From an uncultured Mycoplasmataceae bacterium (GTDB lineage: Bacteria > Bacillota_I > Bacilli_A > Mycoplasmatales > Mycoplasmoidaceae), in NCBI GenBank assembly GCA_949282725.1, contig CASDPP010000001.1:248001-312000 (forward strand): a DNA stretch of 64,000 nt, read 5' to 3'. Within the stretch, counting starts at the first letter, position 1; the number at the start of each line of letters is the position of its first letter. The translations under genes and the position numbers were made by a program. Shown in pieces: positions 60,172-64,000 of the stretch. Below the pieces are notes generated by a model. The model had not been told where the DNA came from. It saw only the letters and a program-made list of their open reading frames with translations, and ran no database searches.

Positions 60172-60201
60172 TTGTTAAAATATTATACATTAATTTATAA
60201 T
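60172..60201 (+). promoter_or_regulatory. promoter of the P-ATPase leader transcript
   Basis: TTGTTA (60172-60177), an 18-base spacer and TATAAT (60196-60201) predict a start near 60208, directly upstream of GAAAGGA and the leader ORF. The region is shared back to back with the rpmG promoter. Confidence 0.55.
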
Positions 60202-60219
60202 AATTGTTGAAAGGAAAAT

Positions 60220-60297
60220 ATGGATGTTGGTGAGAAATACTATTTTTTAGTTAACAAAGAAAAATGTACATATTTTTCTTTATTATTTAACTTTTAG
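60220..60297 (+). CDS. possible 25-aa leader peptide upstream of the P-ATPase
   Basis: A short ORF (starts MDVGEKYYFLVNKEK, 25 codons, TAG at 60295) with a well-placed GAAAGGA ribosome binding site, better than that of the ATPase itself. It is in the same frame as the downstream gene, from which it is separated by only one stop and nine sense codons. A 10-bp hairpin covers codons 13-21. It may be a regulatory leader, as mgtL is for mgtA in enterobacteria, or the remnant of an N-terminal extension. Coding status unproven. Confidence 0.4.
   Translation: MDVGEKYYFLVNKEKCTYFSLLFNF
60256..60281 (+). promoter_or_regulatory. hairpin inside the leader ORF
   Basis: AAAGAAAAAT (60256-60265) and ATTTTTCTTT (60272-60281) pair perfectly over 10 bp with loop GTACAT, followed by a T-rich stretch. 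It could act as an attenuator sensitive to ribosome position on the leader ORF. Confidence 0.4.
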
Positions 60298-60302
60298 TTT
60301 TC

Positions 60303-60324
60303 TTGATACATCTACTTGTATCAA
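60303..60324 (+). promoter_or_regulatory. inverted repeat abutting the P-ATPase start codon
   Basis: TTGATACA-N6-TGTATCAA is a perfect 8-bp inverted repeat whose right arm ends one base before the ATG. As RNA it would hide the initiation region; as DNA it could be an operator. No Shine-Dalgarno sequence lies between it and the ATG. Confidence 0.5.
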
Positions 60325-62988
60325 ATGGCAAAAAAGAAAAAAATTGTTTTATCAAAAAACTATAATTCAAAACTTATAAAATTTTCTAACAAAAATGTTG
60401 GTGAAATTTTTTCTGAATTAAATTCTTCTGAAAAAGGATTAAACAAAAAAAATTTAGATAAAAACATTAACCGTTTTGGAACAAATAAAATAAAAACAGA
60501 AAAAGCAAAACACTGATATAATTTTTTGTATGATGGATTTGTTAATCCGTTTTCATTAATTTTACTTGTTATTGCTGTTTTAAATATTGGGGTTCCAGAA
60601 AATAATGGTAAATGATTCCAACCAGATATTAATTCATGAATCAGTTTTTCTGTGATTATGTCTATTGTACTAATTTCAGGAATCATAAAAATTTTTCAAG
60701 AGTATCGAAGTTCTAAATCTGCTAATAAATTAAAAGAAATGATTAAAGTAACAACTGCTATTGAAAGAGATGGTGTAAAAAAAGAAATACCTATAGATCA
60801 GGTTGTAGTAGGAGATATTGTTCACTTAGCTGCAGGAGATATGATACCTGCTGATATTAGAATAATTTATTCTAAAGACTTATTTATTAATCAATCTTCA
60901 TTAACAGGAGAATCTGAACCAATCGAAAAATTCAGTTCTAATAAAGGGCATGTGCAAAATGCTTTAGAATGTCAAAATATGTGTTTTATGGGAACAAACG
61001 TTGCTAACGGATCTGGTAAAGGAATTGTTGTTTCAACAGGACAAGATACATATTTTGGAAAAATAGCTAAATCAATTAATAGAAAAAAACCACAAACTAA
61101 TTTCGATAAAGGAATAAAATCTGTTAGTTTTATTATCATTATTTCGATGATTATTATGAGCCTATTAGTATTTATTCTAAAAGGTTTATTAGGTAATGAA
61201 ATTAATCCATGAATTAATGCTTTATTATTTTCTTTAGCTACTGCTATTGGTATTGTGCCTGAAATGTTACCAATGATTGTCACTTTAAATCTAGCCCGTG
61301 AAGCATTTCGCTTATCTAAACAAAAAACAATAGTTAAAAATATTAATTCAATTCAAAGTTTTGGGGCAATGGATGTATTATGTACTGATAAAACGGGAAC
61401 TTTAACTGAAGATAAAGTTATTTTAGAAAGACATTTAAATCTAAACAATCAAGAAGATAATCGTGTTTTAGTTTATGCTTATCTTAATAGTTACTATCAA
61501 ACAGGATTAAAAAATTTATTAGATTTAGCAATTATTAGTAAATCTGAAAGTGTTGGATTTAATGATTGATTATTTAAGTTTAACAAAATTGATGAAATTC
61601 CTTTTGATTTTAAAAGAAGAAGAATGACTGTTGTTTTGCAAGATAGTGCTAAAGAAATTCAAATAGTTACAAAAGGTGCAATTGAAGAAGTTATTTCATC
61701 ATGTACTTGTGCCGAAATAGACGGCAAAACAGTTAAATTAAATCAAGAATTAATTAATAAAATTAAAGCTAATGTTACAAAATTAAATAAAGAAGGAATG
61801 AGAGTTATTGCGATTGCAACAAACTCCGAAAGAATCACTAAGGTAAATAACTTTACTGTAGCTGATGAAAGTAATTTAAAATTAGTAGGCTATGTAGCTT
61901 TTTTAGACCCTCCAAAAGCATCTGCTGCTAAGGCTGTTAATAGTTTATTAAAAAGGGGAGTTAATATTAAAATATTAACTGGTGATAATGGATATGTTGC
62001 TAAACATATTTGTGATGCGGTTGGAGTTAAATCTAAAAAAATTCTCTTAGGAGATGATGTTGAAAACATGTCTGATGAACAATTAAAAAAACAGGTTGAA
62101 GAAGTAAATATTTTTGCTAAATTAAGTCCTGAACAAAAAGCAAGAATTGTTTTAATATTGAAATCAAACAAACATGTTGTTGGATATATGGGGGATGGAA
62201 TTAATGATGCATCTGCTATGAAAGTAGCTGATATAGGTATATCAGTTGATACAGCTGTTGATATTGCAAAAGATACTAGTGATGTTATTCTTCTTGAAAA
62301 AGATTTAACAATTTTAGATAACTGTGTTGTAGAAGGAAGAAAAACTTTTGCTAACATTATGAAATACATTAAGATTTCTGTTTCGTCAAATTTTGGAAAT
62401 ATTTTAAGTGTTTTAGTGGCAACCATGTGATTAAGATTTAACCCAATTGCTCCTACACAAATTCTTATTTTAAATATGATTAATGAATTTGGATTATTTA
62501 GCATCCCGTGGGATAGTGTGGATGATTCATACATTGAAAAACCGCAAGATTGGAAAGCAAAAGAAATCTTAAAATTTATGCTATTTATTGGTCCAATAAG
62601 TTCTATTTTTGATATTACTTTCTTTTTGATAATGTATTTTGGATTTAATTGACAAGGTCAAACAGATTTACAAATATCTTTATTTAATACATCTTGATTC
62701 TTATTAAGTGTATTAACACAAATAAGTATTTTCTATATTTTAAGAACTAAAAAAATTCCTATTTTTCAATCAAGCGCTTCAGCCCCTGTTACCTTAACTT
62801 TTTTATGTTTTTCTTTAGTTGGGTTTATTTTTGCATTAACTCCAGGATTAGAAAATATAGGATTTGTTTCTTTAGCAACCCACAGTCCAGAGATAATAGG
62901 ATATGTTTTCTGTGTTTTAGCAGGTTATTGTTTAGTTGGTCAATTAGGTAAAACTCTTTATATTAAAAAATTCAATACGTGAATTTAA
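60325..62988 (+). CDS. mgtA: P-type ATPase, magnesium-transporting type
   Basis: An 887-aa P-type ATPase closest in pattern to the MgtA/MgtB (P3B) group. In order: an N-terminal cation-ATPase region with [19 protein letters not shown], two helices, actuator domain with SSLTGESEP (about residue 194), the [11 protein letters not shown] helix (IVPE-LP, the ion-binding segment), phosphorylated Asp355 in LCTDKTGTL, the nucleotide domain with KGA, the hinge [13 protein letters not shown] (about 618), and six C-terminal helices including [17 protein letters not shown]. Mg uptake is inferred from family. The ATG at 60325 is preceded by a hairpin and leader ORF. Two TGG Trp codons cluster near 62508-62553. 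Confidence 0.9.
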
Positions 62989-63013: not shown

Positions 63014-63760
63014 ATGATTATGAAAAAAATTAAAACAATAAACAAATTATTAAATTCATTAACGTTATTAAGTCCATTAGCAGGAGTTGGATTTAATAAC
63101 CAATATCAAAACACACAAAAAATTATTACTGAAAATAATAGTTCATTAAACAACTATTTTAGTACTAATGATAAACCAGTACAAATGGGTGATATTTGAG
63201 TAACAGTAGAAGATAGTTATTCTGGTCTGAGAATTATTACTGGTTATTCATCTGGAAGTGGGAGATTACAAATACTAGACGACGTAAAAGATATTTCTGG
63301 TAACTCTTTTGAAGATAACAATAATATTCGATTATTAGATTTATCTAATGCTACAAGTTTGACAACTATTGGAAATAGTGCTTTTGAGGGTTGTTTATAT
63401 CTATCAGGAGATTTAGTAATTCCATCTAGTGTAACAAGTATTGGAGGTAGAGCTTTTCTATTTTGTTACAAAGCAGATAATTTAATTTTTAAATCTGAAA
63501 CTCCTCCAACATTTGGAAAAAGTTGACAACCAACATTAAAAGGCAAAGTCTATGTTCCATCAAAACAAGCAAAACAAGCATTTTTAGATGCAGCAAATTT
63601 TGGTTTTACTGAAGATCAAGTAGAAATTGGTTTACCTAAAAATTCTAATGTAGGATTAGTTTTAGGTTTATTATTTGGTTTAGGTATTCCGATTATTTTA
63701 GCGGTAGGGTTTGGAGTCTGATACTTAACAAAAAAGAAAAAAAACAATAGTAAAAATTAA
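63014..63760 (+). CDS. surface protein with BspA-like leucine-rich repeats
   Basis: A 248-aa predicted surface protein. The N-terminus (KKIKTINKLLNSLTLLSPLAGVGF) looks like a signal peptide without a lipobox Cys. Residues about 80-170 carry BspA-type (LRR_5) repeats: LLDLSNATSLTTIGNSAFEGC, LVIPSSVTSIGGRAFLFC, NLIFKSETPPTF, YVPSKQAKQAF. A C-terminal hydrophobic helix (about 212-238) and a Lys-rich tail anchor it. Such proteins bind host or partner proteins. ATG at 63014 or 63020 is possible. The following terminator shows it is the end of a unit. Confidence 0.82.
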
Positions 63761-63798
63761 AAACAAAAAAATAGGGTTAAGACCCTATTTTTTTGTTT
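63761..63798. terminator. bidirectional terminator
   Basis: A perfect 17-bp stem, AAACAAAAAAATAGGGT with ACCCTATTTTTTTGTTT, loop TAAG, starts directly after the stop of the surface-protein gene. It serves both that gene and the convergent gene at the right edge, whose stop lies in the 3' arm. Confidence 0.85.
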
Positions 63799-64000
63799 TT
63801 ATATATTTTTCAAAATATTGTTCTTCAGTTAAATTTTTAGCTTTAGCTCTTTTAAGATTTAAGAATTTACGAACTAATATTATTAAACCAAACGATCCTA
63901 ATCCTAAATTTGAAATAATAACTGGCAGTCCTCCTGATAAGGCTGCTCATAAATTATCATTTAAAATATTACCTGTTACATTTAAAATACCAATAATTAT
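63785..64000 (-). CDS. membrane protein, C-terminal part (5' end outside window)
   Basis: The last 71 residues of a minus-strand gene cut by the window edge. The visible part has a polar segment (GNILNDNLWAALSGG), one transmembrane helix (LPVIISNLGLGSFGLIILV) and a basic cytosolic tail of about 30 residues (RKFLNLKRAKAKNLTEE...). This resembles the C-terminal anchor of the neighbouring surface protein in layout only. Function not recognised. Confidence 0.6.

Follow-up and report, generated by a model that had tools for sequence, protein, structure and literature searches.

The window that we analysed, a stretch of 64,000 nucleotides, comes from a Mollicute genome of 593 kb (6 contigs, ~93% complete) in which TGA encodes tryptophan. 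It carries a gene for a Mg2+-translocating P-type ATPase, identified as MgtA with 966 bits against the TIGR01524 profile (cut-off 611). Immediately upstream of mgtA is a compact leader (Table 1) containing a sigma-70-type promoter, a short upstream open reading frame (uORF) preceded by a strong Shine-Dalgarno sequence, a hairpin within the uORF, and a second hairpin that ends at the mgtA ATG. A segment at the end of the leader, here called the anti-start segment, has two alternative partners, being able to pair either with the uORF start or, via 60303-60310, with the bases abutting the mgtA ATG. Transcription is expected to start near 60208, a few bases 5' of the uORF. The promoter, the GAAAGGA element, the 25-codon frame, and the two perfect stems of 10 and 8 bp had been listed in an earlier sequence-only reading of this DNA, and all of them were exact, base for base. 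On the other side of mgtA, positions 63014-63760 encode a repeat-type surface-like protein with a VPSSVTSIGG motif, whose N-terminus resembles another gene of the genome (L243, near 17115). A perfect 20-bp stem at 63758-63801, terminator-like in appearance, comes after this gene.

Table 1. Features of the mgtA leader, with positions in the window.
Feature	Position	Strand	Basis
Sigma-70-type promoter, TTGTTA-N18-TATAAT	60172..60201	+	Sequence; TATAAT upstream of the uORF in relatives
Promoter boxes	TTGTTA 60172-60177, TATAAT 60196-60201, 18 bases between	+	Read directly
uORF Shine-Dalgarno, GAAAGGA	60209..60215	+	Duplex energy with anti-Shine-Dalgarno −9.6 kcal/mol
uORF, 25 codons, MDVGEKYYFLVNKEKCTYFSLLFNF, stop TAG	60220..60297	+	uORF in 22/23 genus loci; acidic N-termini
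uORF start segment, 5' part of the long pairing with 60294-60314	60220..60243	+	Duplex and own-versus-swapped test in the genus
10-bp hairpin within the uORF, perfect stem AAAGAAAAAT (60256-60265) / ATTTTTCTTT (60272-60281)	60256..60281	+	Sequence; seen in one fold, alternative pairing in another
Anti-start segment, two alternative partners	60294..60314	+	Duplex, own-versus-swapped and overlap tests
Predicted start-hiding hairpin, TTGATACA-N6-TGTATCAA, 8-bp perfect stem (arms 60303-60310 and 60317-60324), ends at the mgtA ATG (60325)	60303..60324	+	Sequence; local fold
mgtA, Mg2+-translocating P-type ATPase	60325..62988	+	TIGR01524; translation under table 4

Conservation of the uORF and its promoter

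We sampled mgtA loci from genomes of the same genus; L005-L026 comprise 22 loci, of which 18-19 are clearly distinct. A uORF with a strong Shine-Dalgarno sequence was found in 22 of 23 mgtA loci, the divergent locus L028 having none. Across L005-L026 the uORF had 20 to 35 codons and a Shine-Dalgarno energy of −8.6 to −15.8 kcal/mol. A comparable uORF was seen in 2 of 34 own-genome control genes with a free upstream region, and in 1/19 and 6/56 genes of further control sets. Just 5' of the uORF, 20 of 22 leaders carry an exact TATAAT (17/19 in the genus, 3/3 in other families), where chance would give 3.4%; a single leader has an exact one in its interior. Since this conserved box sits upstream of the uORF, a transcription start downstream of the uORF appears unlikely, and the uORF is expected to lie at the 5' end of the mgtA transcript, as the sequence-only reading had proposed.

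That reading also attached meaning to the frame shared by the uORF and mgtA and to the missing Shine-Dalgarno sequence of mgtA. Neither point held among the relatives or in the genome. The gap between the uORF stop and the mgtA ATG varied from 27 to 79 nt with all three frames represented, and the readthrough of ribosomes from the uORF into mgtA was therefore rejected. Although mgtA has no Shine-Dalgarno sequence in the genus, only 18% of the 322 genes of the source genome have a clear one (threshold −6). Both features of the window thus appear to be incidental, whereas the strength of the uORF Shine-Dalgarno is out of the ordinary for this genome. Given the same figure, most initiation in this genome must depend on features besides a Shine-Dalgarno sequence.

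The uORF peptides of the genus are highly divergent, including MDVGEKYY in the window, MDPWSCLF, MDPLTNSSQQDGYDS, MDISDYSSQSDEYDE, and the TTG-started MDVHLNESCSTDYNS. Residue 2 was Asp or Glu in 13 of 18 genus uORFs compared to 10% of the proteome (p = 5e-9, which, like the other p-values given here, is optimistic since the leaders and uORFs compared are related sequences). Positions 2-15 contained 2.67 acidic residues against a background of 1.19, and 0.56 basic residues against 2.80, while the two other frames of the same uORFs gave 0.28 and 0.89 acidic residues. These results suggest that an acidic N-terminus is what is kept among the peptides while sequence, length, and frame vary. The window peptide is below most relatives in acidity (Asp2, Glu5, and Glu14) and contains no proline. 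Amino-acid conservation of the uORF was modest to weak, with a pN/pS of 0.76 compared to 0.90 and 1.12 when the frame is shifted. Because the reading frame of L017 is shifted relative to that of L015 past codon 13, the tail of the uORF seems to be unconstrained as an amino-acid sequence.

Predicted competing pairings around the mgtA start

Perfect stems of at least 8 bp are frequent in this AT-rich window (141 redundant matches in 64 kb), so hairpins alone are weak evidence and comparative support was needed. The whole window leader folded better than shuffled sequences (z −2.73), the start-hiding hairpin had a local fold z of −3.42, and the mgtA starts of the genus were more structured than 318 own-genome control starts (p = 6e-6). 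We used an alignment-free test in which the duplex partners within each leader were compared with partners swapped in from other leaders. In the genus, the long pairing between the uORF (positions −5 to 48) and the segment preceding the mgtA start was stronger for own than for swapped partners (−23.3 versus −14.8 kcal/mol, p ≤ 0.0002; mean z −3.14). The same was found for the pairing of the anti-start segment with the start (−8.8 versus −5.8 kcal/mol, p ≤ 0.0002), which agrees with the hairpin that the earlier reading had placed there. The corresponding z-scores in the window were −4.3 for the whole uORF with the downstream segment and −3.9 for anti-start with start, and the duplex of 60220-60243 with 60294-60314 reached −13.7 kcal/mol (z −2.68, p = 0.023). 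Its core, UGGAUGU (60221-60227) with ACAUCUA (60308-60314), disrupts the 8-bp hairpin.

The long pairing and the start pairing shared 2 to 11 nt in every leader (8 nt in the window), and they would therefore compete. In the clade of L013, L015, L017, and L019 (alignment A4), the consensus fold pairs CAUGGA at the uORF start with UCCAUG and includes five doubly compensated pairs. UCCAU also stands opposite the AUGG of mgtA in this clade, so that two start codons would vie for one anti-start element. The Asp2 codon overlaps the AUGGA-UCCAU pairing, and the bias at residue 2 could partly be an RNA constraint. Together, these comparisons support the prediction of two mutually exclusive leader folds and of an mgtA start hidden by a stem. 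Relatives retain the uORF and both pairings, and no conserved promoter was seen other than the one 5' of the uORF; the outcomes that the sequence-only reading had named as contrary to it, loss of the uORF or stems in relatives or a transcript start beyond the leader, did not appear.

We also employed a crude masking model, in which the position of a ribosome on the uORF was masked and the energy needed to open the mgtA start (the opening cost) was computed. In the genus, the opening cost was highest when the uORF head was masked (7.75 kcal/mol). Late and early ribosomes differed (p = 0.005), while a mid-uORF ribosome made no difference relative to none (p = 0.57). In the window, a ribosome at the uORF stop lowered the cost (2.2 versus 6.4 kcal/mol). 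In another family of the same order (f5), masking of the mid-uORF raised it from 6.45 to 8.91 kcal/mol (p = 0.0004). These calculations clearly favour the switch direction proposed below in f5, while their outcome in the genus, where only a ribosome on the uORF head increased the mean cost, is ambiguous.

A predicted leader-peptide switch and its alternatives

The uORF, the position of the promoter, the acidity of the peptide, both pairings, and their overlap are supported by comparative sequence, and we think it reasonably likely that the leader is a cis-acting leader-peptide switch on mgtA translation, namely an attenuator that acts on translation, works without Rho, and follows the logic of mgtL. 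The transcript would open a few bases 5' of an efficiently initiated uORF whose nascent chain is acidic at its N-terminus. With the anti-start segment bound to the uORF start region, the mgtA start would be free; with the same segment bound to the bases at the mgtA start, it would be hidden. When Mg2+ is plentiful, ribosomes would traverse the uORF and prevent the long pairing, the start hairpin would form, and mgtA would be off. When Mg2+ is scarce, ribosomes would fail early on the acidic chain by drop-off, as in MgtL, after which the long pairing could form, exposing the mgtA start and turning mgtA on. That Mg2+ is the signal and that ribosome drop-off does the sensing are inferences, as is the direction in which the switch works, which we propose because import is needed at low Mg2+ and because of the mgtL precedent.

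Translational attenuators of the erm type, found before antibiotic-resistance genes, work by a similar arrangement, since the ribosome on the leader decides which hairpin conceals the downstream start; their stall is drug-induced, whereas the signal for the mgtA leader is likely Mg2+ and the event likely drop-off. In enterobacteria, full translation of mgtL at high Mg2+ represses mgtA, and drop-off at EPDP in low Mg2+ induces it (PMC11282234; PMC11552253). Like the window leader, mgtL has a short uORF before mgtA, an acidic N-terminus, and mutually exclusive pairings (PMC11282234, PMC11552253), and in mgtL as in our model of the genus the output of the uORF and that of mgtA are inversely linked. 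In contrast to mgtL, the window peptide has a different sequence. EPDP-type destabilising motifs are absent from the genus uORF peptides, the window included; by the mgtL-type criterion of an acidic/proline N-terminus, the window has Asp2 and Glu5 without proline. No Rho was found above the cut-off in 36 genus genomes, so the enterobacterial Rho-dependent output step cannot operate in the genus and this mechanism was rejected; the mgtA start codon would be concealed rather than a Rho site exposed. The corL leader of corA in E. coli and Salmonella is similar in that uORF translation opposes a Mg2+ transporter via alternative stems, but it serves a channel of another family, is Rho-dependent, and starts with UUG (PMC11552253).

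Regulation by translational coupling, in which ribosomes loaded at the uORF reinitiate at mgtA or open the hairpin on arrival so that the uORF helps mgtA, seems unlikely to us. The absence of a Shine-Dalgarno sequence at mgtA of the genus would suit it, as would the lower opening cost with a ribosome at the window uORF stop and, on average, the difference from an early ribosome. However, the stop-to-start gap is long and variable, the frame is not maintained, and most genes of the genome have no Shine-Dalgarno sequence anyway. Where uORFs of this kind occur in other families and phyla, mgtA comes with a Shine-Dalgarno sequence of its own. Coupling also leaves the acidic bias and the long pairing unexplained. 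We hold a regulated arrest to be unlikely to a similar or slightly greater degree: here the chain would stall at low Mg2+, and the position of the stalled ribosome rather than drop-off would set the fold. A DEY(D/Y)S-like block near codons 10-15, conserved in many relatives, is a candidate stall region, and EttA-trapped ribosomes give a toeprint with Pro3 of MgtL in the P site (PMC11282234). Yet this block is missing from the window peptide and from the MDPW/MDLW clade, and the fold model gave no consistent response to a ribosome at mid-uORF.

Direct sensing of Mg2+ by a ligand-binding riboswitch that the uORF overlaps by chance is improbable, even though the conserved pairing is extensive and RNA folds in general are stabilised by Mg2+. 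No Rfam family matched the leader at gathering score and there was no meaningful weak match; the alignments have no conserved unpaired core, and the acidity at the peptide level is confined to one frame. The M-box (RF00380) lies upstream of Mg2+ transporter genes in Firmicutes and a few f4 Mollicutes. A covariance-model search found no match to it in the window, the genus leaders, or the genus genomes, while the positive control L029 scored 134 bits; the sequence-only reading had anticipated this negative, and the M-box or any other Rfam family was rejected as the identity of the leader. A DNA operator, with the 22-bp palindrome at 60303-60324 binding a repressor and the mini-ORF incidental, is the least plausible of the alternatives and very improbable. 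There is a perfect inverted repeat near the promoter, but it occurs in one perfect copy, allowing ≤3 mismatches yields 9 matches versus 12 for a reversed control pattern, and what the relatives retain is the base pairing and the uORF rather than the palindrome sequence. The operator was rejected since the palindrome is neither enriched in the genome nor conserved.

Acidic leader peptides before mgtA and mgtE in other lineages

Two further Mollicute families and many Firmicutes also have comparable uORFs before mgtA, in Firmicutes often 3' of an M-box. A strong uORF is present in ~31 of 39 f5 mgtA leaders, with a peptide of a different sequence type (MSIPS... or an acid/Pro type, for example MTNAITPEPEPGELIK), and these leaders show an analogous long pairing (own versus swapped p ≤ 0.0002). 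Asp or Glu occupied residue 2 in 1 of 31 f5 peptides, so an acidic start is not universal. The idea that codons 3-5 of the f5 uORFs (UUCCUUCC) pair with the Shine-Dalgarno of mgtA found no support (p = 0.08). RNAalifold on a MAFFT alignment of 17 f5 sequences gave no structure because the alignment itself fails, and the own-versus-swapped duplex tests were used instead. Within family f7, about half of the mgtA leaders of genus g8 have a uORF compared to 0 of 25 in genus g14 (L165-L189, 25 genomes), where the mgtA Shine-Dalgarno is strong and uORF control of mgtA is apparently absent. The distribution is thus patchy, as only ~3 of 17 other Bacilli examined have a uORF before mgtA.

From the mgtA loci examined in other phyla we gathered 32 strong uORFs, a limited sample of sequence-level observations, and residue 2 was Asp or Glu in 25 of them (8% background, p = 1e-18). 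At the Serratia locus the peptide was MDPDPTPL..., the known MgtL type. In these phyla the head of the uORF paired with the stretch preceding the mgtA Shine-Dalgarno better than swapped partners did, and the same type of test with the control placed within genes gave no signal. An M-box was located upstream of a separate uORF in 9 of 13 loci scanned. Such tandems of an M-box and a separate acidic uORF before mgtA were seen at L042, L045, L049, L050, L057, L058, L059, L074, and L083, and several of them have a stem able to cover the mgtA Shine-Dalgarno.

A lone 'control' gene with an acidic uORF turned out to be mgtE. Five mgtE leaders encode acidic peptides (MDAGSSTGTVPGRSS, MDAGNSTGTKRGRRRR, MDAGPGSRRHRWSR, and two MDSCD types) that resemble mgtA leader peptides such as MDAGSNSGNKPKGRS. 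Acidic uORFs with a strong Shine-Dalgarno (MDAG.../MDSCD...) precede mgtE at L085 (minus strand), L294, L296, L298, L306, and L316, and uORFs like them stand before mgtA in these genomes or in related ones. No M-box was found in three MDAG-type mgtE leaders, and no MgtE above the cut-off in the genus of the window. Because similar uORFs precede two unrelated Mg2+ transporters, the peptide is probably tied to Mg2+.

We tentatively propose, as a serious possibility, that acidic leader peptides are a widespread and largely unrecognised Mg2+ sensor before the unrelated mgtA and mgtE in many bacteria, acting on translation in those that lack Rho, sometimes as a second sensor behind an M-box, and persisting in Mollicutes after loss of the M-box, with the window leader as one lineage. 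The sequence-only reading had suggested an independent invention. Its remark that the sequence is unlike enterobacterial mgtL stands, but since acidic uORFs occur before mgtA across many phyla, the window leader could belong to a wide class as one of its lineages or represent one among several convergences; as a whole, that interpretation is partly supported. If the Rho-less version in small genomes and the uORFs before mgtA and mgtE hold, ribosome stability would be a general Mg2+ gauge. In the literature searched, which included few subscription papers or preprints, the only leader peptides related to Mg2+ sensing by a nascent chain were enterobacterial mgtL and corL, both Rho-dependent, and the novelty of a Rho-free switch is accordingly provisional. 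The mgtA leaders of L078 (betaproteobacterial) and L113 (Oscillospiraceae) have the peptide core SN(A/G)DRREK in common, which suggests that gene and leader were transferred together or that the core is under strong constraint.
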